Source: Exiguobacterium antarcticum DSM 14480 (lineage in GTDB: Bacteria > Bacillota > Bacilli > Exiguobacteriales > Exiguobacteriaceae). Taken from it: a stretch of 64,000 nt of DNA. Below are positions 2,022 to 55,374 of the stretch, piece by piece (within the stretch, counting starts at the first letter, position 1; each line of letters starts with the position of its first letter). The notes below the pieces were generated by a model. That model saw only the letters and a program-made list of their open reading frames with translations, was not told the DNA's origin and did not search any database. Both the position numbers and the translations under genes were made by a program. Location of the stretch: positions 1 through 64,000 of the forward strand of contig NZ_JMKS01000004.1 in the NCBI RefSeq assembly GCF_000685865.1, in the 5' to 3' direction.

Positions 2022-3200
2022 TCAATCCATGAAATTCAGTTTTTGATAAGCAGAGTAGAGACGATCCAAGGCTTCATCTAGCTGGCTTCGTGGGCAACCA
2101 AAGTTCAATCGTTCAAATGCAAGGGCATTTGTGCCAAAGGGACGACCATGTGTCAATGCCAAACCGGCCTCCTCGACTAACCAAGTGGCACGTATCGTAT
2201 CGTCAAACGGGAGTGCTTGGCAATCGATCCAGAGTAAAAACGTCGCATCAGGTGACACCACAGTCAAGCGAGGCATCTCTGTCTGAATGCGTTGCACGGC
2301 GTGATTTCGATTAGCTTCTAAATAATACAGTAAGTTGTCTAGCCACTGTTCACTTTGAGGATCAGTATAGGCGGCGATGATGGCAGTTGAAGCCATGGCA
2401 TTCGGATGAACGAAATGGGCTTGCTGGACCGCTTCGATTTTCAGTCGGGTTTCAGCTTCCGGTACAATGAGATAAGAGGCATATAGACCAGGAATGTTAA
2501 ATGTTTTAGACGGGGCACTTACTAAAATCACCTTATCGTAATCAAACCCGATGATCGGATAGTGGCGTGAACTCGAAAAAATCAAGTCGGCATGAATCTC
2601 ATCCGATACGATATACAAGTCGTATTGTTTAGCCAAATCTACTAGACGCTGAAGCTCGGACTGACTGAAGACACGTCCTGTCGGATTATGAGGATTACAT
2701 AAAATGATCATCCGTGCCGTCTTCATCTGTTGCTCAAGCAATGAGAAGTCGATTTCATAACGCCCCTTCGTAAAAAGAAGAGGATTTTCAATCAATTGTC
2801 GTTCATTTGACTCGATCACATGATGGAATGGAGGATAGACAGGGGTTTGGATGATGATTTCATCCCCTTTTTCTGTTAAAGCCAACACGCTATGCGCCAG
2901 GGCGGGGACGACACCGCTGGAATAAAGAATCGTTTCCAGGTCAACCGGTTGATCATATCGTTTTTTAAACCAATGCGAAATCGCACGTTTTGCATCCTCT
3001 TCGAAGAGCGAGTAGCCGAAATGACCACTTGCTGCCCGTTTTGTCAGTGCTTTTGTAATACTGTCTGCGGGGCGGACGTCCATGTCGGCGACCCACATCG
3101 GAATCAATTGATCGGACCCGAATAATTGTTCCAACCCATCCCATTTCGCAGATCCGGTTTTTCTTTTTTCCAACACTTCATCAAAGGAGTATTCTTGCAT
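2022..3200 (-). CDS. patB: PatB/MalY-type PLP-dependent C-S lyase (cystathionine beta-lyase or aminotransferase fold)
   Basis: This 392-residue fold-type I PLP enzyme has the PatB/MalY arrangement: an N-terminal MWVADMD motif that is diagnostic for this subgroup, NPHNPTGRVF, DEIHADL, and the Schiff-base lysine in SAPSKTFNIPG near residue 230. A C-terminal arginine lies in GCPRSQLDEAL. PatB/MalY enzymes cleave cystathionine or cysteine conjugates to a thiol, pyruvate and ammonia, and some act as aminotransferases; the sequence alone does not fix the substrate. The start ATG at 3200 has a GAAAGGAA Shine-Dalgarno upstream. It is a single gene ending in a strong terminator. Confidence 0.88.
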   Translation of the reverse strand: MQEYSFDEVLEKRKTGSAKWDGLEQLFGSDQLIPMWVADMDVRPADSITKALTKRAASGHFGYSLFEEDAKRAISHWFKKRYDQPVDLETILYSSGVVPALAHSVLALTEKGDEIIIQTPVYPPFHHVIESNERQLIENPLLFTKGRYEIDFSLLEQQMKTARMIILCNPHNPTGRVFSQSELQRLVDLAKQYDLYIVSDEIHADLIFSSSRHYPIIGFDYDKVILVSAPSKTFNIPGLYASYLIVPEAETRLKIEAVQQAHFVHPNAMASTAIIAAYTDPQSEQWLDNLLYYLEANRNHAVQRIQTEMPRLTVVSPDATFLLWIDCQALPFDDTIRATWLVEEAGLALTHGRPFGTNALAFERLNFGCPRSQLDEALDRLYSAYQKLNFMD

Positions 3201-3350
3201 CTGTCTTCATTCCTTTCAAAATAGAATTGCTACTGTCTTCACAGTACCGAACGGGCTTCATTTCGGCAAGTTCGAAAAATAAAGGTTTTAAACGGAGGGA
3301 CGTTGGGAAAACTCAATATCGTACACAAAAAAAAGGACGGGGTGGATTTC

Positions 3351-3548
3351 ATGTTACATTCTAAAGTGTTAGTTGGTCGATCACCAGAAGAGCTCGAAGA
3401 ACGGTTGAATCATTTCTTTGAAGAAAATGGTGTCGGTTCAAATTCAATCATCACACTCAAATTCTCGACATTCGTTGCATCGAAAGCGGATGAACATTAT
3501 TCCGTGTTGATTGTCTTTGATAACTCATTAACAAAAAAAGTCCTTTAA
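3351..3548 (+). CDS. Small acidic protein resembling Cse60 (DUF2758 family)
   Basis: This 65-residue protein has the order strand (MLHSKVLVG), helix (SPEELEERLNHFFEENG), strand (IITLKFST), then a final strand (YSVLIVFDN). Length and order resemble the small Cse60/DUF2758 family of Bacillales, whose members were first described as sporulation proteins but also occur in non-spore-formers. The function is unknown. I use the ATG at 3351, which has a GGGGTGG a few bases upstream; an in-frame TTG at 3303 has no ribosome site. It has its own terminator at 3554-3594. The family assignment is from memory of the pattern and is tentative. Confidence 0.6.
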   Translation: MLHSKVLVGRSPEELEERLNHFFEENGVGSNSIITLKFSTFVASKADEHYSVLIVFDNSLTKKVL

Positions 3549-3553
3549 TGAAC

Positions 3554-3594
3554 AAAAGTAGCTATCTCGATCCAGTGAGAGTAGCTGCTTTTTC
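3554..3594 (+). terminator. Intrinsic terminator after the small Cse60-like gene
   Basis: An imperfect stem of AAAAGTAGCTA..CTC paired with GAG..TAGCTGCTTTTT is followed by a T-run. Confidence 0.75.
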
Positions 3595-3610
3595 TATTCT
3601 TTCAAAAATG

Positions 3611-3639
3611 TTGAAATGATGTCAGGCTTACGTTATACT
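3611..3639 (+). promoter_or_regulatory. Sigma-A-type promoter of tRNA-Thr
   Basis: TTGAAA at 3611-3616 and TATACT at 3634-3639 are separated by 17 nt. The tRNA begins 17 nt after the -10 box. Confidence 0.75.
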
Positions 3640-3656
3640 AATATTAGAAAAAATAG

Positions 3657-3727
3657 GCTTCCGTAGGTTAATGGCAGACCTCAGCAATGGTAATGCTGCA
3701 GTGCGAGTTCGATTCTCGCCGGAAGCA
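3657..3727 (+). tRNA. tRNA-Thr (anticodon GGT)
   Basis: This 71-nt tRNA folds fully. The acceptor GCTTCCG pairs with CGGAAGC, the D arm has a GGT/ACC stem, the anticodon stem CAGCA/TGCTG closes the loop ATGGTAA with anticodon GGT, and the T stem GCGAG/CTCGC closes TTCGATT. The discriminator base is A. G1-C72 and C2-G71 fit threonine identity. The 3' CCA is not encoded. A hairpin terminator follows 10 nt downstream. Confidence 0.93.
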
Positions 3728-3737
3728 TCAAAAATAA

Positions 3738-3785
3738 ACAGGTCTTCCGTCACAAGTCAATTACTTGCGCGGAAGACCTGTTTTA
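3738..3785 (+). terminator. Terminator of tRNA-Thr
   Basis: A 12-bp stem, ACAGGTCTTCCG with its complement, encloses a second small stem (CAAGT/ACTTG). A TTTT run follows. The terminator separates the tRNA from the regulator gene downstream. Confidence 0.85.
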
Positions 3786-3820
3786 GTTTGAATCAGGAAT
3801 CGAACTTGAAGGAGACGTCC

Positions 3821-4699
3821 ATGAATGAACTAAACATTTTGATTGGGAACGAAATCAAGCGGATTCGGCAAGAACGAAATTGGACTCAATCTGAACTGTG
3901 CCAAGGTATTTGCAGCCAAGCTGAGATCAGTAAAATTGAGAATGGACACAATTCGCCTACCGTTGATTTGTTGCAAAAAATCGCGAATCGGTTGCAGGTA
4001 CCCGTTTCAGAATTTTTTATTAATGAAAACGAAAAGCAAACATTTCGAACGATAGATCTTGAAATGACGCAACTGATGCGCGCGACTAAGTATAGTGAAA
4101 TGAAAAAACGGATTGATAGATACTTAAACGAAATAACTAATGAAGACGTAATCATCTTATTACATTACTATCGGTTGATCAGTGAAGAAGCAATGAGGAA
4201 TATTGATTATCGAACTTGTATCTCACAATTACTTAACATGACGATGGAAAAACAACTAATGGAAGAATCATTTTTATTATACGTCAGAATTCAGATGGCG
4301 ATTGCTGTCTTGTACACTAATCATAAGGAATACCAGCACTCTGATACAATTTATACGACTATTTTGCGACATGATTATAGTACTACTACGTATAAAAAAA
4401 TAAAGTTGAAAATCTTATATAACTACATCAGGAACTTGATTAAACTAAAAAAATATTCATTAATCCTCATCAATACAGAAGAAGCGATTAAAGAAAGTAA
4501 TCAGTTAAATGATATCAGTTACTTAGGTCATTTTTATTACCAGCGTGGTTATGCGTTCGAACAGTTATCAAGTTCGCACACATCGATTCAAGACGCGTAT
4601 ACGATTGCTTACGGAATTTTTCTGGCGACTGAAAACAATTCCTATGCCAAAATATTAGAAGATCACTTACGAGATAGTCTTTACTTTACTTTGGGTTAA
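3821..4699 (+). CDS. XRE-family HTH regulator with TPR-like C-terminal domain (RRNPP/Rgg-like), copy 1
   Basis: This 292-residue protein has an XRE helix-turn-helix at about residues 8-62 (IGNEIKRIRQERNWTQ, then SQAEISKIENG). A long helical C-terminal region follows with TPR-like repeats, including HFYYQRGYAFEQL. This is the architecture of peptide-sensing RRNPP regulators such as PlcR, Rgg and NprR. The ATG at 3821 follows GAAGGAG; reading further upstream would run into the tRNA. A close paralogue lies 53 bp downstream on the same strand, so the two probably share a transcript. I found no convincing pheromone-precursor gene next to it. It could also be a peptide-independent regulator. Confidence 0.85.
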   Translation: MNELNILIGNEIKRIRQERNWTQSELCQGICSQAEISKIENGHNSPTVDLLQKIANRLQVPVSEFFINENEKQTFRTIDLEMTQLMRATKYSEMKKRIDRYLNEITNEDVIILLHYYRLISEEAMRNIDYRTCISQLLNMTMEKQLMEESFLLYVRIQMAIAVLYTNHKEYQHSDTIYTTILRHDYSTTTYKKIKLKILYNYIRNLIKLKKYSLILINTEEAIKESNQLNDISYLGHFYYQRGYAFEQLSSSHTSIQDAYTIAYGIFLATENNSYAKILEDHLRDSLYFTLG

Positions 4700-4752
4700 A
4701 TACTACAGTGCATGATTAACATTAGTCAGTGGATACAGGAAGGTAAAAAAAT

Positions 4753-5628
4753 ATGATGACGTCACTACCACATATGATTGGGAACGAAATCAAGCGAATC
4801 CGGAAACAAAAAAAAATGACGCAAAAAGAATTGTGTGAAGGAATATGCAGTCAAGCTGAAATTAGTAAAATTGAAAATGGTCGTAATTCTCCAACCATCG
4901 ATCTACTGCAACAAATTGCAAAACGTCTGCGGGTACCGCTGTCCTTGCTATTTCGGGATCAATTAGAAAGCGATGCGTTTCGAGAGACGGATAATCATTT
5001 ATCGAGTTTATTTCGCGAGCGAAAATACAAAGAGATGCGCAAAGAAATAGCTTATACCAATAGTGCGCATCACCATGAGATTTTTCTATTAAAGGCCTAT
5101 TTCAGTATTTTACTGGACGTGAAGACAGATAAAATCGATTATCGTACAGCTTCTGTTTTATTATCACGGTTAACGGATCAAGAAGATATCTGGTATGAGT
5201 CACCGAAGATGTATATTCGTATTAAAATGGCAATTTCAAATTTACATACAGAAAATGAACAATATCATCTTGCAGAGAAAGTGTACGAAGAACTGGAGCA
5301 GTTACCCTATGATACAGAAGAGCTGAAAAAACAATTAATCAAGATTTATTATAACCATTCTCAGCTGTTAACATATGAAAAAAAATATGATGCTGGTTTG
5401 AAAATTACCGAAAAAGGGCTGAAATACAGTTTGTCGTTGAATGATGCCTCTTTTATTGCTCATTTTTACTACCAACGTGGGTATTATCATGAAGTGATGG
5501 GGGTAGACACCCCGTCGACTCGACGTGATTATACGATCTCGTATGCCTTGTTTCGGGCATTTCATTTAAACACATACGAAGAAATCGTTCTCGAAGGGAA
5601 AGAACGATTTCTACTATTTACGTTTTAA
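4753..5628 (+). CDS. XRE-family HTH regulator with TPR-like C-terminal domain (RRNPP/Rgg-like), copy 2
   Basis: This 291-residue protein is a tandem paralogue of the gene before it. The HTH region is nearly the same (IGNEIKRIRKQKKMTQ, SQAEISKIENGRNSPT), while the helical sensor half is much more diverged, though HFYYQRGY and YTISYA are kept near the C terminus. That is the expected pattern if both bind similar DNA but read different signals. The start at 4753 is preceded by AGGAAGG. The stop overlaps the 3' end of the convergent azoreductase gene by 4 bp. The ligand and target genes are unknown. Confidence 0.85.
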   Translation: MMTSLPHMIGNEIKRIRKQKKMTQKELCEGICSQAEISKIENGRNSPTIDLLQQIAKRLRVPLSLLFRDQLESDAFRETDNHLSSLFRERKYKEMRKEIAYTNSAHHHEIFLLKAYFSILLDVKTDKIDYRTASVLLSRLTDQEDIWYESPKMYIRIKMAISNLHTENEQYHLAEKVYEELEQLPYDTEELKKQLIKIYYNHSQLLTYEKKYDAGLKITEKGLKYSLSLNDASFIAHFYYQRGYYHEVMGVDTPSTRRDYTISYALFRAFHLNTYEEIVLEGKERFLLFTF

Positions 5629-39841: not shown

Positions 39842-40473
39842 TCAGACTGAAGACAAAGTAGTGGTTTTTCTCTTAATCGGACTGGATGAGAAAGTTCCTC
39901 ATTTCTCTACTTTCGGAAAAAATTACGTCCGGCGGTTTCAGGACACGGATGTGTTCGAAACCATCTTTTATCGTATCCTCTCACAAGGTGTCGAAGCTGG
40001 GTTCGTGGACCCTTCGGTCCTATTCATGGATTCCACAGACAACAAGGCGAACGCAAATAAACGGAAGTTCAAGAAGAAAAAGATTGTCCGTCGCGCTCTT
40101 TTCTTTCACAGTGCACGAAGAGCCAAGAGAATAAAAAAATGATCCTACGCCATATCTGGCAGGAAGCAATGGATGAGGTGGAGCATTTGCGGCATACTTC
40201 TGTGAACCGGGCATTGTATCGAAAACGACAGGAGACCATCGAACGTGTCTTCGCAGACGCAAAAGAAAAGCATGGCATGCGTTGGGCCCGATGTCGTGGT
40301 CTGAAAAAAACAACGCTACAAGAGATGTTTACTTTTAGTGCCCTGAACCTCAAAAAATTGGCGAACTGGTCATGGGATTCCGGTGGGAATCCTTGTTTTC
40401 AACATCACTTTTTACGACTACATAAGACAAACCCTCATTTCAACGTTGAAATGAGGGTTTGTCTACGATCTGA
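39842..40473 (+). mobile_element. 632-bp non-autonomous derivative of the IS1182 element
   Basis: Both terminal repeats and the 40-bp right palindrome match the full copy at 23059-24721. Two internal blocks are missing, corresponding to 23098-23572 (475 bp) and 23790-24345 (556 bp). 1663 minus 1031 equals 632, so these two deletions explain the whole length difference. A few point changes are also present. It has lost the transposase start and most of the catalytic domain. Confidence 0.93.
39880..40473 (+). pseudogene. Fragments of IS1182-family transposase
   Basis: The middle fragment (GLDEKVPHFSTFGKNYVRRF through KRKFKKKKIVRRA) is followed, after the second deletion, by the C-terminal fragment (HIWQEAMDEVEHLRHT onward) in another frame. 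The first catalytic motif reads FMDSTDNKANAN, changed from FMDSTHIKANAN. The gene cannot make an active enzyme. Confidence 0.9.
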
Positions 40474-40499
40474 AACACGCTCTCCTGGGAGAGCGTGTT
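40474..40499. terminator. Right target copy of the terminator, between the IS derivative and the 97-aa gene
   Basis: AACACGCTCTC-CTGG-GAGAGCGTGTT is an 11-bp perfect stem. It now serves as the terminator of the convergent minus-strand gene. Confidence 0.75.
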
Positions 40500-40515
40500 G
40501 TTCTGTAAACGTTAT

Positions 40516-40809
40516 TCAGGCACTCGTCGATACAAGCGACTGAATACGCTCGCTGTGTGCCGTGTAGGAAGACAGGTGTTCAAATTGATGCAGGGTAAGA
40601 GTCGTCATGCGGCTATGACCTGTGCTTGATTCAAGCAGCAGGTAGGCTTCATTTTGATCCTGACCGCCACCGTCAAAGCGGATTTTAGCTGTAATCGTTC
40701 GTCCATCGTTCGTTTGCATATAAATATCGTAACCACCGAAATCAACTCGGGTAAAGCGATTTGCTTCGCTTACGATTCGTTTAAAGGTTTCTATCAATGA
40801 GTAAGACAT
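40516..40809 (-). CDS. Unrecognised 97-aa protein
   Basis: This 97-residue soluble protein has alternating strands in the middle (RFTRVDFGGYDIYMQTNDGR, ITAKIRFDG) and a C-terminal helix. The compact pattern suggests a small beta-rich domain, and I do not recognise a family. ATG 40809 has a strong AAGGAGGAAC site 8 nt upstream, which makes expression likely. It is alone between the IS derivative and the yeeI gene. Confidence 0.7.
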   Translation of the reverse strand: MSYSLIETFKRIVSEANRFTRVDFGGYDIYMQTNDGRTITAKIRFDGGGQDQNEAYLLLESSTGHSRMTTLTLHQFEHLSSYTAHSERIQSLVSTSA

Positions 40810-42017: not shown

Positions 42018-43802
42018 ATGAACAGAGCAGCAGTATTCCACCGTGCCTTGTCGCCGTATGTGTATAAGTATGATCAGGAGACCGTCCACATCCGTTTGAT
42101 GTCCGCCAAAGGAGATTTGGATCGTGTCGAGTTGGTCCATGGGGATCCGTATGAATGGGACGCGGAAAAAGAAGAAGACCGTGACTGGAATTTCGATCCA
42201 AACAAAGAGAAGTTCTGGAAAACGACGACGACGGAGATGACGTTCTCCGGATCGGATGCGACCCATGATTATTGGTTCGTGGCCATTAAACCGGCGAAAA
42301 AACGTGTCCGTTATGGATTCAAAGTCAATGCGGGGGAAACGTCTGCCGTCTATACGGAGCGTGGTTGGTATGACGAATTGCCACTCGATCATCCCGGATA
42401 TTATTTTGCCGTTCCGTATATCAATGCGGTGGATGTGTTTGACGCACCTAAGTGGGTAAAGGACACGGTTTGGTATCAAATCTTCCCGGATCGGTTTGCG
42501 AACGGTGATCCGGCGAATGATCGACCTGGAACGATTGCTTGGGGAGCGGAAGCCCCTGCCTTTGATAATCATTTTGGTGGTGACTTTCAAGGGGTGATTG
42601 ATCATATTGACTACTTGAAAGCCCTTGGGGTCACAGGCATTTATTTCTGTCCGATTTTCGTGGCACCTTCTAACCATAAATACGATACGCTCGATTACTT
42701 ACGACTGGATCCGAGTTTCGGGACAGAAGAGACGTTCCGAGAAATGGTCCAGTTGCTTCATGACAATGGAATCCGGATTCTGCTTGATGCCGTCTTTAAC
42801 CATGTCAGTGTCGATCATCCGGCGTTTCAAGATGTCATGAAATATGGAAAAGAGTCGAAATATGCTAACTGGTTCATGATTGACGAATTTCCGATCCAAA
42901 CGACGCCAGAACCAAACTATGAAGTGTTTGCTTTTGAACCAAACATGCCTAAATTAAATACAGCCCATCCAGATGTCAAAGACTATTTATTGAAGGTCGG
43001 ACGATACTGGGTTGAAGAGTTTCAGGTCGATGGTTGGCGACTGGATGTAGCGAGTGAGGTCGATCATGCGTTTTGGCGAGAATTCCGGACCGCGGTACGC
43101 ACTGCCAATCCAGAAGCATACATCGTAGGGGAGTGTTGGACGGATTCTCAGGAATGGTTGCTTGGCGATCAATTTGATGCCGTCATGAACTATGGACTGA
43201 CGGAAGCCTTTCTTACATTCTTTGCGACAAACGAGACGAAGGCTACGGCATTCAGCCACGCGGTCGTTCGAAATCTCAACGGGAATACGATGAATGTCAA
43301 CGAGGTGATGTTCAACTTAGTCGATTCGCACGACACCCCGCGCGCCTTGACACGAGCGAACGGGAACCACGAACGGATGAAACTGCTGATGTTGTCTCTT
43401 TTGACGTTCACGGGAAGTCCGGTCATTTATTACGGTGATGAAATTGGTCTGACGGGTGGTCAAGATCCGGATAACCGAAAGTGTATGGTCTGGGACCCGG
43501 CGGAGCAGGATACGGCACTGCTGGCGTATGTCAAACGTTTGATTGCTCTACGGAAACAACACCCAGGTCTTGCCAATGCAGGGACGTATCAATTCGAACG
43601 GTTAAACGATGAAACGGCCAGTTTTGTCATCCGTCGCCAGACCAATCAGGCAACGTATTTGATTTTGTTTAATAACGGACCGGAAGCCATCGACTTTACC
43701 TTCGACGAACCGACGATTGATTTGTTAGAAGAACGTCCGTCTGCAAAAACGGTTGTCGTTCCTCCTGTATCTGGAAAGATACTTCAAGTACAATCTTCAT
43801 GA
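42018..43802 (+). CDS. Neopullulanase/maltogenic amylase-type alpha-glucosidase (GH13)
   Basis: This 594-residue intracellular protein has an N-terminal starch-binding-like domain (CBM34, about 1-125), a GH13 barrel and a C-terminal beta domain. Catalytic residues lie in [11 protein letters not shown] (nucleophile, near 339), VGECW (acid/base, near 370) and VDSHDTPR (near 436). [10 protein letters not shown] is region I. Enzymes of this layout (NplT, maltogenic amylase, cyclomaltodextrinase) hydrolyse cyclodextrins, pullulan and maltodextrins. No signal peptide is present, so it acts on imported dextrins. It is monocistronic; no sugar transporter is adjacent and no cre site was seen. Confidence 0.92.
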
Positions 43803-43809
43803 ACAAACG

Positions 43810-43853
43810 AAAAGCATCCGCTCAGGGATTTTCCCATGATGGATGCTTTTTTT
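43810..43853. terminator. Bidirectional terminator between the GH13 gene and the serine operon
   Basis: AAAAGCATCC pairs with GGATGCTTTTTTT, and an inner GGGA/TCCC stem strengthens the loop. Confidence 0.88.
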
Positions 43854-43869
43854 GAGTTTCAACGAGTAT

Positions 43870-45081
43870 TCATTTGAAAAACGGATGAATCAATAAGCCA
43901 CTTCTCAATTTAGGTTCAAACCAAGTCGATTTGGGCGGCATGACTTCATTAGCATCGGCGACAGCCATCAACTCCGTTAAACTTGTCGGATGCAAATGAA
44001 AGGCGACGGCCATCGTTCCTTGATCGACAAGCTGTTCGAGTCCGGCATACCCTCTGATACCCCCGACGAACTGAATCCGAGAATCGGTCCGTGGGTCTTC
44101 GATGCCGAGGAAAGGGGTCAACACTTCATCTTGTAAAATCGCGACATCCAGATTCTCTTTGACGGATGGATGTTCCTTCTCATAATCAAGTGTATACCAG
44201 TGTTGTTTGACATACATTTCAAACCGATGTGGCTTCGTTTCCGTCGCTCGACCGGGCGTGATCGTGAAACGACTGCTGATCCGTGTCAGTAACTCGTCAA
44301 CGGATTGACCATATAAATCTTCAACGACACGATGGTATCCTTGGATGTTCAATTGATCACTCGAAAACGAAACGGCAAGGAATAAACCGGCGTCTTCATG
44401 ATGATTTAACCGGGCGACTTGAGAAGCGGCTTCTGCCCGGTGATGACCGTCTGCAATATACAAATGATCATGTCGGGCGAACTGGCTACCAATCGTCATC
44501 ATTGCAGCGCGTTCTGTAATCTTGAAAATCGTATGTTCGATGCCGTCTTCCGCCGTGAATTGATAAATCGGGTGCTGTTGGTCCTGCTCGGAAATGACGC
44601 GGTCCAGTTCGAGATCAGGATGATGCGCAAGTAAGATCGGGCCAGTATGAGCAGCTAGTGACTGGACATGTCGAACGCGGTCTCGTTCTTTGTCGGGACG
44701 CGTGAACTCATGTTTCCGGATGATACCTTGATCGTAGTCAGCAACAGAGACACATCCGACGAATCCAGTCTGAGTATGTGTGCCATCGCTTAGCCGGTAC
44801 AGATAGTAACTTTCTACGTCATCAAATGTCAGAATCTGGCGTTCGATAGCTTCTTTGAAATGAAGAGCCGCTTGTTGATAGACGCGCGGATCGTGATCAT
44901 CGATGAAGTCAGGTAACGTCACTTCGGCTTTATCCATCCGTAAAAAAGATAAAGGGCGACGTCGGACTTCTGCTCTTCCTTCCGACCGATTAAAGACGTC
45001 ATAAGGAAGAGAGGAGAAAGCTTCCGCGTATTTAGGTTCAGGACGTAAAGCATGGAATGGTTCAAAAGTAGGCATAATCAA
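43870..45081 (-). CDS. DUF1015 family protein in the serine biosynthesis operon
   Basis: This 403-residue protein of the DUF1015 family has the N-terminal FEPFHALRPEPKYA and SLPYDVFNR motifs, EFTRPDKERDRVRHVQ and, near residue 210, YIADGHHRAEAA. The D-G-H-H-R segment resembles the phosphate-binding motif of the ParB/sulfiredoxin fold, to which free-serine kinases also belong. It follows serA by 6 bp on the same strand, so it is the third gene of serC-serA-DUF1015. No function is established for DUF1015. Its place suggests work on serine, phosphoserine or their regulation. Confidence 0.87.
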   Translation of the reverse strand: MIMPTFEPFHALRPEPKYAEAFSSLPYDVFNRSEGRAEVRRRPLSFLRMDKAEVTLPDFIDDHDPRVYQQAALHFKEAIERQILTFDDVESYYLYRLSDGTHTQTGFVGCVSVADYDQGIIRKHEFTRPDKERDRVRHVQSLAAHTGPILLAHHPDLELDRVISEQDQQHPIYQFTAEDGIEHTIFKITERAAMMTIGSQFARHDHLYIADGHHRAEAASQVARLNHHEDAGLFLAVSFSSDQLNIQGYHRVVEDLYGQSVDELLTRISSRFTITPGRATETKPHRFEMYVKQHWYTLDYEKEHPSVKENLDVAILQDEVLTPFLGIEDPRTDSRIQFVGGIRGYAGLEQLVDQGTMAVAFHLHPTSLTELMAVADANEVMPPKSTWFEPKLRSGLLIHPFFK

Positions 45082-45087
45082 CGCTCC

Positions 45088-46245
45088 TTAAAGTAGTCGT
45101 GTTTTGAGCACGCCGGGTATCGAGTCCAACTGGCGTAATGAGATCGTTTCATCCAAGTGGTTATCGATGTCGATGATCGTATAGGCGATGCCACCTTTAC
45201 TGCCGTTGATCATATTTGCGATGTTGATTTGTTCCGTCGCGAGGACGGAAGCAATCTGCCCGACCATGTTCGGAATATTTTGATGGGCAATCGTAATCCG
45301 GCGTTTCCCAGAGTAGGGAAGTTCGACCGACGGGAAGTTGACTGAGTGGCGGATGTTACCGGTCTCCAAAAATAGTTTAAGCTGATCGACCGCCATGATG
45401 GCACAGTTTTCCTCTGCTTCGCCGGTCGAAGCTCCGATATGTGGGAGCGGGATGACACGCGGCAGGGACAGAATGAATGCGTTCGGGAAGTCGGTCACGT
45501 AATTGGCTATGCGACCTGACTTTAAGACCGTTGCCAAGGCGTGTTCGTCAATCAGTTCACCCCGGGAAAAATTGAGTAGCGTTGCTCCTTGTTTAATCTT
45601 CGACAGTAAGCGTTCGTCGAGCAGATGGTGCGTCGCATCGATCAAAGGCAGGTGCAAGGTGATATAGTCGCTCGTCGCGAGTAACTCTTCGAGGTTCGTG
45701 ACACGATGGACTTGATTGGACACACGCCAAGCCGATTCAACAGACATGTGTGGATCATATCCGGAAACCGTCATCCCAAGCTCGTGTAACGTATTGGCTA
45801 AGCTCGCCCCAATCGCCCCAAGACCGACGATTCCAATTCGTTTACCGAGCAGTTCTGTGCCGGCAAATTGTTTTTTGTTTGCTTCAATCCGCTCCGGAAT
45901 ATCGGGCCCACGCAGATTATTAGTCCATAAAATACTTGGAATCAGTTTACGGGCGGTCAAGAACAGGCTGGCGATGACCAACTCTTTTACGGCATTCGCA
46001 TTGGCACCGGGTGTCGAGAAGACGGGAATTCCGCGATTCGCCAATTGGTCGAGTGGGATGTTATTGACTCCTACACCAGCTCGGGCGACGGCTTTTAAGG
46101 ATTCATTAAATTTCATTCCGTGTAGATCTTTGCTTCGAACAAGAAACGCATCCGGCGTTTCGATGTCATGCTTGACGAGGTACTGATCGGTAAAGCGTTT
46201 TAAACCTTTGTCAGAGACATCGTTCCAAAGTTGTACGTGATACAT
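45088..46245 (-). CDS. serA: D-3-phosphoglycerate dehydrogenase (short form with C-terminal ACT domain)
   Basis: This 385-residue NAD-dependent enzyme oxidises 3-phosphoglycerate in the first step of serine synthesis. IGIVGLGAIGASLAN near residue 140 binds NAD. VTLHLPL-like (YITLHLPLIDATHHL), LLNFSRGELIDEHAL and LPHIGASTGEAEENC (with the catalytic histidine) are standard. A C-terminal ACT domain (about 315-385, ITIAHQNIPNMVGQIA) probably binds serine for feedback. The intervening ASB domain of long SerA forms is missing. It starts immediately after the serC stop (TAAATG) with AGGGGGAA inside the end of serC. Confidence 0.94.
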   Translation of the reverse strand: MYHVQLWNDVSDKGLKRFTDQYLVKHDIETPDAFLVRSKDLHGMKFNESLKAVARAGVGVNNIPLDQLANRGIPVFSTPGANANAVKELVIASLFLTARKLIPSILWTNNLRGPDIPERIEANKKQFAGTELLGKRIGIVGLGAIGASLANTLHELGMTVSGYDPHMSVESAWRVSNQVHRVTNLEELLATSDYITLHLPLIDATHHLLDERLLSKIKQGATLLNFSRGELIDEHALATVLKSGRIANYVTDFPNAFILSLPRVIPLPHIGASTGEAEENCAIMAVDQLKLFLETGNIRHSVNFPSVELPYSGKRRITIAHQNIPNMVGQIASVLATEQINIANMINGSKGGIAYTIIDIDNHLDETISLRQLDSIPGVLKTRLL

Positions 46246-47310
46246 TTAGCGTTCCCCCTGTTCAAATCGGTGTAAGGCATCTAGGAGGGCGTCGACTCCG
46301 GATGTTGGCATGGCATTGTAAAGACTAGCACGCATGCCACCAACAGAACGATGTCCTTTGAGATTGACGAGCTGATTACGTTCTGCAAACTTTAGAAATT
46401 GTTCATCTAAGTCAGTCTGCCCCGTCGTGAACGGGATGTTCATGCGACTACGATCCGTTAGGGCGACAGCGTTTGAGAACAACGTCGATTGATCCAAATA
46501 CGTATAGAGAGCGGCGGCTTGTTGGCGGTTTCGTCGAACGACCGTCTCAAACCCTTGTTCTTTGATCCATTCGAGGACAAGTTTTGTTAAATAGATACTA
46601 TACGTTGGTGGTGTATTGTAAAGAGAATGATGCGTAGCATGTGTGTCATAACGCAAGTATGAGCCTAACAATGCTGGTGTTCGTTCGAGAAGGTCGTCTT
46701 TGATGATGACAAGCGTCATCCCTGCCGATCCTAGATTTTTTTGGGCACCTGCATAAATCAAATCGAACTGACTGATATCGATTGGTTCAGACAAGATCGA
46801 AGAGGAAAAGTCTGCCACTAAAGGAACATCGACTTGCGGTACATGGGTGTAAGTCGTCCCTTCGAGTGTATTGTTCCACGTGATATGAAGATAGTCGGCG
46901 TCGGAAACGACCGGATCAGTCGGAATAGAACGATAGAGGTTTGACGCGGATGAGGCGATAATCCGCGTCTTCGCATAGACTTGTGCATCTTGAATCGCTT
47001 TTTGGGACCAACTACCCGTATCAATGAAGTCGATCAGATGCTGATTTGTCGCCAAATTGAGCGGTAACATTGAAAACTGGAGCGTGGCGCCACCTTGTAA
47101 AAATAAAACATGATAGCCGTCCGGCACCTCCAGCAGCTCACGGAGCAAAGATTCTGTTTCGTTTAGGATAGTTTCGAATAAAGCGGAACGATGACTTAGC
47201 TCCAAGACGGATTGACCGGATCCTTGATAATTCAACAACTCAGATTGGGCTTTAAGTAAAACCGGAACCGGTAACACAGCTGGACCAGCGGAAAAGTTAA
47301 AAACCGTCAT
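46246..47310 (-). CDS. serC: Phosphoserine aminotransferase
   Basis: This 354-residue PLP enzyme converts 3-phosphohydroxypyruvate plus glutamate into phosphoserine. FNFSAGPAVLPVPVL is the SerC start signature, HVLFLQGGATLQFSMLPLNL binds phosphate, and the PLP lysine is in YAGAQKNLGSAG near residue 195. The C-terminal half has HRSVGGMRASLYNAMP. It is the first gene of the serC-serA-DUF1015 operon, with GTAGGAGGAATGAC at the start. I saw no T-box leader in the 274 bp upstream. Confidence 0.95.
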   Translation of the reverse strand: MTVFNFSAGPAVLPVPVLLKAQSELLNYQGSGQSVLELSHRSALFETILNETESLLRELLEVPDGYHVLFLQGGATLQFSMLPLNLATNQHLIDFIDTGSWSQKAIQDAQVYAKTRIIASSASNLYRSIPTDPVVSDADYLHITWNNTLEGTTYTHVPQVDVPLVADFSSSILSEPIDISQFDLIYAGAQKNLGSAGMTLVIIKDDLLERTPALLGSYLRYDTHATHHSLYNTPPTYSIYLTKLVLEWIKEQGFETVVRRNRQQAAALYTYLDQSTLFSNAVALTDRSRMNIPFTTGQTDLDEQFLKFAERNQLVNLKGHRSVGGMRASLYNAMPTSGVDALLDALHRFEQGER

Positions 47311-53077: not shown

Positions 53078-53143
53078 TATTGGAAAAGGGGTAAAGAGAA
53101 TGGTGTATATTTTCAGAAAAATCCAATTAAAGGAGTGCCTCGC

Positions 53144-54418
53144 ATGAGACTGGAAACGACGACCTACTTAATAGACAAGTTTTCTGCTGTCCGGAAGCAA
53201 ACACTGTCTTTGATCGAACCGTTAGAGCAAGAGGACTTTGTGATTCAAGCCAATTCAGATGTCAGCCCACCCAAGTGGCATATCGCGCATACGACATGGT
53301 TTTTTGAACGCATGATCCTTCAAGAATACGATGCCGAGTATATAGTGTTTCATCCGGCCTACAATTACTTGTTTAATTCCTATTACAATTCGATTGGTCC
53401 GTATCAGCCCCGTCACCAGCGCGGGGTCTTGTCACGACCGACCGTCAGAGAAGTGCTAGCGTACCGGGAACATGTCGATCAAGCCATACTGTCATTGTTA
53501 CAACAAAAACGAGACGAACCGGTGCAGCAAGTCATTGAACAGTTGATTGAAATGGGGCTTCAACATGAACAGCAACATCAAGAATTGATTCTGATGGACG
53601 TCAAATATAATTTTTTTGTCAATCCATTGTTACCTGCGTATCAAAAAAGAGAAAAATCTCAACGGGACGACCGTCCTGTTGTTCCACTGGAGTTCAAGCG
53701 ATTTGAAGGCGGGCTTGTTGAAATCGGTCACGATGGGCAAGGATTTGCCTTTGATAACGAAAATCCGGTTCATAAAACCTGGCTCGACCCGTTTGAGCTG
53801 GCAACCCGCCCTGTCACCAATCGCGAGTTTCTGGCATTCGTCGAAGCTTTAGGTTATGACCAGTCTGAACACTGGTTGTCTGATGGTTTTCATGTCGTCC
53901 AGCAACAAAACTGGAAAGCGCCTTTATATTGGATGAAAGAGAAAGAAGGAACGTGGTCGATGTTCACACTGAATGGAGTGGAGCCGTTGGATTTGGACGA
54001 ACCCGTTTGCCATGTCAGTTTTTACGAGGCAGATGCGTATAGCCGTTGGTGTGGAAAACGATTACCGACAGAGGCCGAGTGGGAATATGTCGGGCGTCAA
54101 GTCGACCGACAGGGTAACTTGATGGGACGAGGTTCCTATCATCCTAGTCCGATCATCTCAGGTTCACAGGAAATGCGGGGGATGTTTGGGGATATCTGGG
54201 AATGGACAGCGAGTGCGTATGCGCCGTATCCTGGAAATCGTCCGCTGGAAGGGGCGTTAGGGGAATACAACGCGAAATTCATGTGTAACCAGATGGTACT
54301 TCGAGGTGGAGCATGTGTGACTCCCGATGATCATATCCGGGAGACATATCGTAATTTCTTTCCGCCGGATAAACGTTGGCAGTTCAGTGGCATTCGATTA
54401 GCAGGTGATGTTCAGTGA
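53144..54418 (+). CDS. egtB: Ergothioneine sulfoxide synthase EgtB
   Basis: This 424-residue non-haem iron enzyme has an N-terminal DinB-like domain (about 1-150) and a C-terminal formylglycine-generating-enzyme-like domain (about 185-424). Candidate iron ligands are H49 (HIAHTTWFFE), H141 and H145 (HEQQHQEL), which match the spacing of mycobacterial EgtB. FGDIWEWTASAYAPYPG is the FGE-type motif. EgtB joins trimethylhistidine (hercynine) to a thiol donor with O2. The donor, gamma-glutamylcysteine or cysteine, cannot be read, and no egtA is present. ATG 53144 follows AAAGGAGTG. It overlaps egtD by 4 bp. Confidence 0.9.
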   Translation: MRLETTTYLIDKFSAVRKQTLSLIEPLEQEDFVIQANSDVSPPKWHIAHTTWFFERMILQEYDAEYIVFHPAYNYLFNSYYNSIGPYQPRHQRGVLSRPTVREVLAYREHVDQAILSLLQQKRDEPVQQVIEQLIEMGLQHEQQHQELILMDVKYNFFVNPLLPAYQKREKSQRDDRPVVPLEFKRFEGGLVEIGHDGQGFAFDNENPVHKTWLDPFELATRPVTNREFLAFVEALGYDQSEHWLSDGFHVVQQQNWKAPLYWMKEKEGTWSMFTLNGVEPLDLDEPVCHVSFYEADAYSRWCGKRLPTEAEWEYVGRQVDRQGNLMGRGSYHPSPIISGSQEMRGMFGDIWEWTASAYAPYPGNRPLEGALGEYNAKFMCNQMVLRGGACVTPDDHIRETYRNFFPPDKRWQFSGIRLAGDVQ

Positions 54419-55374
54419 GCCAGCAGGTCGAGAGTTATGATATGTATACGAAGCAACACAACATGCGTAAAGAAGTTTTAGACGGGCTCTCGCAAGTCCA
54501 TAAAATACTCCAAGCAAAATATTTTTATGATCAAGCGGGGTCGGAATTATTCGAACAAATTACCTACCAACCAGAATACTATCTGACTCGGACGGAACTC
54601 GACATCTTGTATCAGCATCAAACCGCGATTGCCGATTGTATCGGACCTGTCCATACATTGATTGAGTATGGAAGCGGCAGTAGTCGAAAGATTAAAAGTC
54701 TGCTCAGCTCACTTCACCAACTAGAGGCGTATATGCCAATTGATATTTCGAAAGAATTTTTGATTCAATCGGCGCATCAGCTTTCGCAGGATTATCCCGA
54801 CCTCCAAATCAAAGCAGTTTGTGGTGATTATTCCGGATCCTTACGCTTACCGATTGAAGACAAGTTAAAAAAAGTGATCTTCTTTCCCGGCTCGACCATC
54901 GGAAACTTCGACCCGGCAGAAGCGGCTGACTTCTTCAGACGTTCGTCTCAATTGTTAGAAAAAGGTGACGGATTTTTGATCGGAATCGATACAAAAAAAG
55001 AAGCCACTGTTTTACATCAAGCCTACAATGACGAGGCCGGTATCACGGCACGGTTCAACTTGAATATATTAAATCACATCAATACGTCGCTTGGCGGGAC
55101 ATTTGATTTGGCCTTGTTTGACCATGTTGCTTTTTATAATGAAGAGTTCGGGCGCATCGAGATGCATCTTAAAAGTCGGATCGATCAACTCGTGACGGTC
55201 GCCAACCAGACGTTTACGTTCAAACAAGGGGAAACGATCCACACAGAAAATTCTTATAAATACAGTATCGAAGAATTTCAGTTGTTGGCAAACCAAAATG
55301 GATTTACACCGGTCAAGTATTTTACGGATGCGAGGGAGCACTTCAGCGTACATTATCTAGAAAAAACACGATGA
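54415..55374 (+). CDS. egtD: L-histidine N-alpha-methyltransferase EgtD
   Basis: This 319-residue SAM-dependent enzyme makes hercynine by trimethylating histidine. KYFYDQAGSELFEQIT and PEYYLTRTE open the EgtD fold, and YGSGSSRK (near residue 86) binds SAM. FFPGSTIGNF and IDTKKE are conserved, as is ENSYKYS for histidine binding. The length is typical (about 320). GTG start 54415 overlaps the egtB stop as GTGA, so translation is coupled. A converging hairpin terminator follows. Together with egtB this gives the core ergothioneine pathway. Confidence 0.92.
   Translation: MSQQVESYDMYTKQHNMRKEVLDGLSQVHKILQAKYFYDQAGSELFEQITYQPEYYLTRTELDILYQHQTAIADCIGPVHTLIEYGSGSSRKIKSLLSSLHQLEAYMPIDISKEFLIQSAHQLSQDYPDLQIKAVCGDYSGSLRLPIEDKLKKVIFFPGSTIGNFDPAEAADFFRRSSQLLEKGDGFLIGIDTKKEATVLHQAYNDEAGITARFNLNILNHINTSLGGTFDLALFDHVAFYNEEFGRIEMHLKSRIDQLVTVANQTFTFKQGETIHTENSYKYSIEEFQLLANQNGFTPVKYFTDAREHFSVHYLEKTR

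Follow-up and report, generated by a model that had tools for sequence, protein, structure and literature searches.

A DUF1015 protein with a predicted free-serine-kinase fold in the serC-serA operon of Exiguobacterium antarcticum as a candidate for the phosphoserine-to-serine step in SerB-less bacteria

The first 64,000 nucleotides of contig NZ_JMKS01000004.1 of Exiguobacterium antarcticum DSM 14480 (in the following, the window) contain a tight operon on the minus strand from 47310 to 43870, which comprises serC, serA and a DUF1015 gene in this order. A preliminary description of this DNA had pointed out the DUF1015 protein as the third member of a serine operon without serB, the gene of the HAD-type phosphoserine phosphatase, and had suggested from its ADGHHR motif that it may act on phosphoserine or serine, perhaps as the missing step. 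The position of the gene, the motif and the lack of a serB gene inside the operon were all borne out, and the present analysis deals with the probable function of the protein. All features of the operon given below are located on the minus strand.

The first gene, serC (46246..47310), encodes a phosphoserine aminotransferase of 354 amino acids, which exceeds the NCBIfam cut-offs of PRK05355 (482 bits, cut-off 253) and TIGR01364 (446 bits, cut-off 443.6). Its stop codon directly abuts the start of serA (0 bp between them). The latter (45088..46245) encodes a SerA-like 3-phosphoglycerate dehydrogenase of 385 amino acids, a 2-hydroxyacid dehydrogenase (PF02826, E 7.6e-40; TIGR01327, E 8.7e-70) that remains under the equivalog cut-off for 3-phosphoglycerate dehydrogenase (TIGR01327, 236 vs 454 bits) and carries a weak, sub-threshold ACT-like match (Pfam) at its C-terminus. 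After a gap of 12 bp the DUF1015 gene (43870..45075, 401 amino acids) begins with the ATG at 45075; the TTG at 45081 given in the list of open reading frames is probably not the true start. By profile, the protein is a member of the DUF1015 family (PF06245, which we take to be equal to COG4198) with an E-value of 1.8e-86 and 290.5 bits (cut-off 25.8) over profile positions 2-324 of 325. PF06245 is its sole Pfam match at E-values up to 10, so neither ParB (PF02195) nor a DNA-binding domain is among the matches, and no HAD or SerB match was obtained (Pfam, E up to 10; NCBIfam, E up to 0.001). Downstream of the DUF1015 stop codon, a terminator-like hairpin with a U-rich tail (43800..43862; RNA fold -22.6 kcal/mol, z -4.85) is shared by the end of the operon and a convergent alpha-amylase/neopullulanase-like gene; it was missed by a simple terminator scan limited to loops of 3-8. 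The operon region contains three promoter-like sites, which is fewer than in shuffled sequences (4.9), and therefore no promoter is claimed.

The absence of a recognizable serB extends to the whole genome (3.22 Mb, 7 contigs, completeness 100%), in which the DUF1015 gene is present once. A separate serB gene, named in the preliminary description as an argument against its proposal, was not detected: the best match to the SerB profile TIGR00338 is one short hit of 36 bits (cut-off 144). Since this profile scores over its cut-off in none of 249 genomes of the same phylum, Bacillota, the absence of SerB is normal there. The phosphatase could nevertheless be one of the histidine or HAD phosphatases of the organism, with DUF1015 acting elsewhere in one-carbon or serine metabolism. 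Six matches to PF12710 were found in the genome, of which four are single-domain HAD proteins (MtnX-, PpaX-, PGP- and YjjG/YfnB-like) and two, in frames of 671-673 amino acids, are presumably P-type ATPases. Furthermore, there are four histidine phosphatases (PF00300), one of which, L118, matches PspA with an E-value of 1.1e-19, albeit with 71 bits against a cut-off of 350. PspA/iPSP, a histidine-phosphatase type unrelated to DUF1015, is likewise a non-orthologous replacement of SerB, and several unrelated phosphoserine phosphatases have been proposed in gut bacteria (PMC9026213). The three scanned PF00300 proteins (all but L121) score far under the PspA and PRK13463 cut-offs, and no ser gene could be seen by eye in the flanks of L118, L119 and L120; the gene of L118 itself is flanked by a YwpF-like gene on one side and a hydrolase gene on the other. 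As such an enzyme would also leave the ser operon and the exclusion of SerB across phyla (see below) unexplained, we regard this explanation as improbable.

For the analysis of the protein family, a single search of genome contigs was carried out that yielded at least 587 relatives. The best 80 loci were kept and are the basis of all 80-locus counts, and the window protein was aligned with the proteins of 79 of them (alignment A3, 80 sequences; the incomplete L108 was left out). The AlphaFold (AF2) model calculated from this alignment has a mean predicted local distance difference test score of 96.0 and a predicted template modelling score of 0.92. A Foldseek search against 350,542 PDB chains revealed nine matches at E-values of 0.001 or less (E 6e-8 to 1e-5, probability 1.0), all of which belong to one family: the ADP-dependent free serine kinase SerK of Thermococcus kodakarensis (TK0378; 5x0e, 5x0b, 5x0k, 5x0j and 5x0g), its Pyrococcus homologue 1vk1, termed a hypothetical protein in the PDB title and 88% identical to SerK, and SbnI (5uje, 6nr6 and 5ujd), which phosphorylates free serine for the synthesis of staphyloferrin B. 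The tenth match is unrelated (E 8e-3, probability 0.13), and a library of viral structures gave no match at E-values of 0.001 or less. Alignment of the model with the nine structures by VIA-align resulted in Z-scores of 12.5-13.7 (12.7-12.9 for SbnI) over 208-225 residues with root-mean-square deviations of 3.8-5.7, followed by partial alignments with sulfiredoxin (Z 4.6-5.3 over 95-97 residues); all others reached 2.3 or less. In seven of the nine VIA-align rows the match runs from model residue 88/97 to 400/401 and therefore covers both SerK domains. The N-terminal extension of about 88 residues (1-88) has no structural match in the fold search, and the N-terminal 120 residues folded alone gave no PDB match at E-values of 0.001 or less and a single VIA-align row with a Z-score of 2.0. 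Taken together, it is strongly supported by the model that the DUF1015 protein has the fold of the free-serine-kinase family (SerK/SbnI), and no other match is convincing. The preliminary description, which had asked for a structure comparison, had suggested a relation to the ParB/sulfiredoxin fold and its free serine kinases; the predicted likeness goes beyond this, as it includes the second domain and two motifs that were not named there.

These two motifs are HE and PK(S/T)T. In SerK, HE is located at 29-30, DGHHR at 69-73 and PKTT at 220-223, and the same motifs in the same order were found in all 80 rows of A3 and in both SerK sequences. In the window protein they correspond to H122-E123 (44707..44712), the proposed counterpart of SerK H29-E30 and a putative catalytic base, to the putatively phosphate-handling ADGHHR at residues 208-213 (44437..44454), counterpart of SerK D69-R73, and to P380-P381-K382-S383-T384 (43924..43938), counterpart of the SerK segment S219-PKTT-223. 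The first two are invariant in 80 of 80 sequences, and H122-E123 is also kept in every sampled protein of the types I, II and III defined below. The third is invariant in A3, with T or C in place of S383 in two further type I proteins (L152 and L024). A further residue of A3, E32 in the N-terminal extension (44980..44982), is invariant in 80 of 80 sequences and typical of type I; an additional type I protein (L018) has Q at this position, and the residue is replaced in nine of nine sampled type II proteins. When the window protein was shuffled 20,000 times, DGHHR occurred in 16 cases and the full order HE, DGHHR, PK(S/T)T in none. A comparison with SerK by hhalign (probability 74, E 2.8e-5) paired DGHHR with DGHHR and PPKST with SPKTT; as the alignment covers these last two motifs, the pairing of H122-E123 with H29-E30 rests on motif order and conservation. 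The SerK residue E30, named in the PDB titles as E30A and E30Q mutants, is presumably catalytic. Searches of the PDB sequences, with the single protein as well as with the profile at E-values up to 10, revealed neither SerK nor any other relative.

Two explanations that start from the fold have to be considered here. ParB-fold proteins are often NTP-dependent switches, and a survey of the ParB-CTPase fold from 2025, by which a link of ParB and DUF1015 is already in print, chose a protein with a 'DU1015' fusion among 50 proteins for binding tests (PMC12704722); a function of DUF1015 is not reported in the accessible text of this article. The protein could thus be a nucleotide- or phosphoserine-binding regulator or scaffold that tunes the flux through SerA and SerC and is no enzyme. 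We consider this very improbable, as A3 shows no variation in the SerK-type motifs, the Pfam matches include no DNA-binding domain and an absence of SerB would not be predicted. The strongest competing view is that the protein is a genuine kinase of free serine, which forms phosphoserine from serine either for assimilation to 3-phosphoglycerate, with SerC and SerA running in reverse, or for phosphoserine supply, while biosynthesis proceeds via another, unrecognized phosphatase. Among solved structures, the closest ones belong to serine kinases, and the SerK motifs HE, DGHHR and PK(S/T)T are retained. The similarity to SerK includes the gene linkage: in Desulfurococcales, the SerK gene has serA and aminotransferase genes in its neighbourhood, and the enzyme channels serine towards 3-phosphoglycerate (PMC5120207).

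The linkage of DUF1015 to serine genes is not restricted to Exiguobacterium. A serA and/or serC gene is located within 3 kb on the same strand in 36 of the 80 loci (serA in 30, serC in 26) and in none on the opposite strand; in 27 loci the distance is within 150 bp. Where 1.5 kb or more of upstream sequence is available (75 loci), a ser gene is present in 34. The linked loci span at least four phyla, Bacillota, Bacteroidota, Acidobacteriota and Elusimicrobiota, and include Lachnospiraceae, Clostridium, Chitinophagaceae, Pyrinomonadaceae, another Acidobacteria bacterium and Elusimicrobiales. For 59 chosen neighbour proteins and the 25 of 122 families listed for them, the other neighbours include GlgB (4, the most frequent), MscS (3), S1/P1-nuclease-like proteins (3) and class-V aminotransferases (2), and no second theme besides serA/serC could be found among these 59 proteins. 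At one locus (L040, 1979-2075) a tetrahydrofolate riboswitch begins about 120 bp past the end of the DUF1015 gene on the same strand, and in three genomes of one genus weak HAD matches lie about 1 kb from DUF1015 (G179:C1:2256893-2257075, G152:C1:2061555-2061734 and G204:C1:762879-763043). Within the 249 Bacillota genomes, DUF1015 is present in 123 and SerC (NF003764) in 75: 52 have both, 23 SerC alone, 71 DUF1015 alone and 103 neither (odds ratio 3.3, p 5e-5; this and the following co-occurrence p-values ignore kinship). In 18 of the 52 genomes the two genes are within 10 kb of each other, with about 0.4 expected. Published observations fit this context: glycine riboswitches have been reported upstream of five COG4198 genes on metagenome pieces, presumably from Firmicutes (Kazanov et al., PMC2211319), and in two Porphyromonas species DUF1015 is found together with serC and an NAD(P)-binding gene (PMC11316588). 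In the 40 genomes behind half of the 80 loci, SerB scored over the cut-off in none and gave a weaker match in eight; DUF1015 was found in three of 14 control genomes, Thermotoga maritima included.

The relation to SerB was analyzed in two other phyla, using 299 genomes of Pseudomonadota (the phylum of locus L092, Propionivibrio) and 198 of Bacteroidota (that of L103, Chitinophagaceae), in which SerB was counted as present if TIGR00338 scored over its curated cut-off. In Pseudomonadota, DUF1015 was found in 54 and SerB in 216 of the 299 genomes; eight have both, 46 DUF1015 alone, 208 SerB alone and 37 neither (p 4e-23), so that SerB is present in 8/54 genomes with DUF1015 vs 208/245 without it. 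In Bacteroidota, DUF1015 occurs in 173 and SerB in 55 of the 198 genomes, and an exclusion of SerB by PF06245 as a whole was rejected, as 50 of the 55 SerB-containing genomes carry a PF06245 gene. These genes differ in type. All eight sampled SerB-less Bacteroidota have a protein of the type of the window (type I), characterized by PYDV, E32, HE, K129, DGHHR, D310, GG, PPKSTW and E387, and in seven of them serA or serC adjoins on the same strand. Among 12 sampled SerB-containing Bacteroidota, nine have a second type (type II; L123-L126, L129-L132 and L134) and three a third one (type III; L127, L128 and L133), which retain HE, DGHHR and K-S-T and have lost some of the remaining residues typical of type I. 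The flanks of these 12 genes, about 4 kb each, contained neither serA nor serC. The gene scpA adjoins the type II gene in L123, L124 and L134, in L124 together with tsaE and a tsaB/D-like gene, and a 3-hydroxyacyl-CoA dehydrogenase and an Ala_racemase_N protein are encoded beside the type III gene of L127. In a FastTree phylogeny, type I is recovered as a single clade of 137 out of 149 sequences (support 0.874); the window protein lies inside it on a long branch.

The A3 profile scores over the 198 Bacteroidota are strongly bimodal: 84 genomes score at least 400 bits, 15 score 280-391, 70 score 220 or less and 29 have no match (E 1e-20). SerB is present in 0/84, 4/15, 46/70 and 5/29 of these classes, respectively. 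With type I defined by the 400-bit line, which was set after the score gap had been seen and by which the 15 genomes at 280-391 bits (four of them with SerB) are counted with the rest, SerB is found in 0/84 type I genomes vs 55/114 others (p 7e-17). It is thus well supported, by counts that ignore kinship, that type I DUF1015 and SerB are largely mutually exclusive. A link to serine genes was seen for type I and for none of type II, type III and a distant form with DGNHS, which occurs in one of the eight Pseudomonadota genomes with both genes (L150, 3389-5281) and in which DGNHS replaces DGHHR.

From the computed operon, predicted fold, motifs, subfamily split and SerB exclusion, we infer for type I DUF1015 an enzyme of the SerK/SbnI fold that converts O-phospho-L-serine to L-serine and thereby replaces SerB, a reading to which we assign a probability of roughly 60%. 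The enzyme would have the reaction and the pathway position of SerB without being related to its family. A phosphoserine-consuming enzyme is favoured because the pathway lacks one and SerC already supplies phosphoserine, and the exclusion of SerB is in agreement with this. A serine kinase would be redundant or futile in biosynthesis for the same reason; it would also leave the mostly SerB-less type I genomes unexplained, and the alternative phosphatases of the E. antarcticum genome are only weak candidates for the step that would then be vacant. We regard the kinase as unlikely but retain it as a serious competitor, because the nearest characterized members of the fold are kinases and SerK neighbours serA in Desulfurococcales. 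The fold can bind the proposed substrate, since SerK was crystallized with phosphoserine and AMP (title of 5x0e). SerK differs from DUF1015 in sequence (about 14% identity) and in lacking the N-terminal part of about 88 residues, and DUF1015 is mostly found where SerB is missing; SbnI differs in its siderophore context and kinase direction.

In the proposed reaction, the phosphoserine that SerA and SerC supply would be accommodated between the ParB-like and the C-terminal domain, the phosphate being held by D209-G-H-H-R213, and K382-S-T would hold the substrate or phosphate. E123 may serve as general base or acid, and the N-terminal extension with PYDV and E32, which SerK does not have, may reshape the pocket. 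The phosphate would then pass to water or be taken over by a small molecule, for instance inorganic phosphate or a nucleotide. The reaction of 3-phosphoglycerate dehydrogenase is energetically unfavourable and depends on the phosphatase to draw it forward; because it needs a downhill last step, hydrolysis or transfer to inorganic phosphate combined with a pyrophosphatase fits best, and this pair is likelier than ATP synthesis. A serine kinase running in reverse, by which the phosphate of phosphoserine is saved on an acceptor (inorganic phosphate to pyrophosphate, AMP to ADP or ADP to ATP), is a tentative and rather doubtful variant. If true, it would be a phosphate-conserving end of serine synthesis in anaerobic and many other bacteria of several phyla, and the gap of the missing SerB would be filled in hundreds of genomes. 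A pyrophosphate-serine phosphotransferase activity (EC 2.7.1.80) is known from Propionibacterium, and T. maritima possibly has a pyrophosphate-dependent serine kinase; neither could be confirmed by the literature search, and both could lower the novelty.

Several observations weigh against the replacement of SerB by type I DUF1015. The characterized relatives of the fold, SerK and SbnI, are kinases and not phosphatases, and at the sequence level the protein resembles SerK only weakly. No ser neighbour is present in 44 of the 80 loci, and no glycine riboswitch (Rfam) was found in the 21 of the 80 loci that were scanned or in the window. As 23 of the 75 SerC-containing Bacillota genomes are without DUF1015, other phosphatases must exist, and as SerB reaches its cut-off in none of the Bacillota genomes, the exclusion cannot be judged in the phylum of the window. 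In Pseudomonadota, 39 of the 54 genomes with DUF1015 seem to be one clade, part of a group of 48 genomes (39 with DUF1015, none with SerB) that is taken as one clade from the sampling order. Without this group, SerB is lacking in 7/15 genomes with DUF1015 vs 28/236 without it (p 0.0016). Furthermore, seven of the eight Pseudomonadota with both genes are one type I clade (L143-L149, 70-85% identical to L143), whose existence also speaks for the kinase. In five of these seven genomes SerB is located within 3 kb of DUF1015: in L144, SerB (2642-3730) lies directly beside DUF1015 (3734-4975), and the two are likewise close in G297, G313, G332 and G380. Such an arrangement may reflect an ongoing replacement or a pairing of kinase and phosphatase. 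Finally, the two Porphyromonas species mentioned above (PMC11316588) are Bacteroidales, for which type II and SerB are expected, and a ser-linked DUF1015 there could blur the split of the types.

The idea of the preliminary description that DUF1015 acts on phosphoserine or serine and may supply the missing step is thus strengthened by the finding that type I largely replaces SerB in two other phyla, while activity and direction remain at the level of a proposal. No publication that assigns this or any other function to DUF1015 was found in the searched collection of open-licence articles. The authors of the SerK study from 2016 found no clear-cut bacterial homologues (PMC5120207). In 450 gut genomes of diverse Firmicutes, SerA and SerC are reported to be present together with none of four phosphoserine phosphatases, and other families have been proposed for the gap (PMC9026213); the word DUF1015 is absent from this article. 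The gaps for serB are still unsettled in GapMind as well (PMC7311316). A widespread gene whose product has the predicted fold of serine kinases, and which is often part of a serA-serC operon and for the most part mutually exclusive with SerB, offers a specific candidate for this published gap. If the proposed function is true, a large domain family of unknown function would be given one, predicted serine auxotrophies would be corrected, and the SerK kinase fold would turn out to be used for serine synthesis.

Two further loci were noted in the window. At 39861-40543 there is a transposase remnant of overlapping short frames, and of the two frames scanned only 40139-40543 matches DDE_Tnp_1_6. 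At 53135-55374, a gene for an FGE-sulfatase and DinB_2 protein (Pfam), read as EgtB-like, overlaps a gene for a putative histidine methyltransferase of 319 amino acids (EgtD-like), and the two possibly form an ergothioneine-type gene pair.

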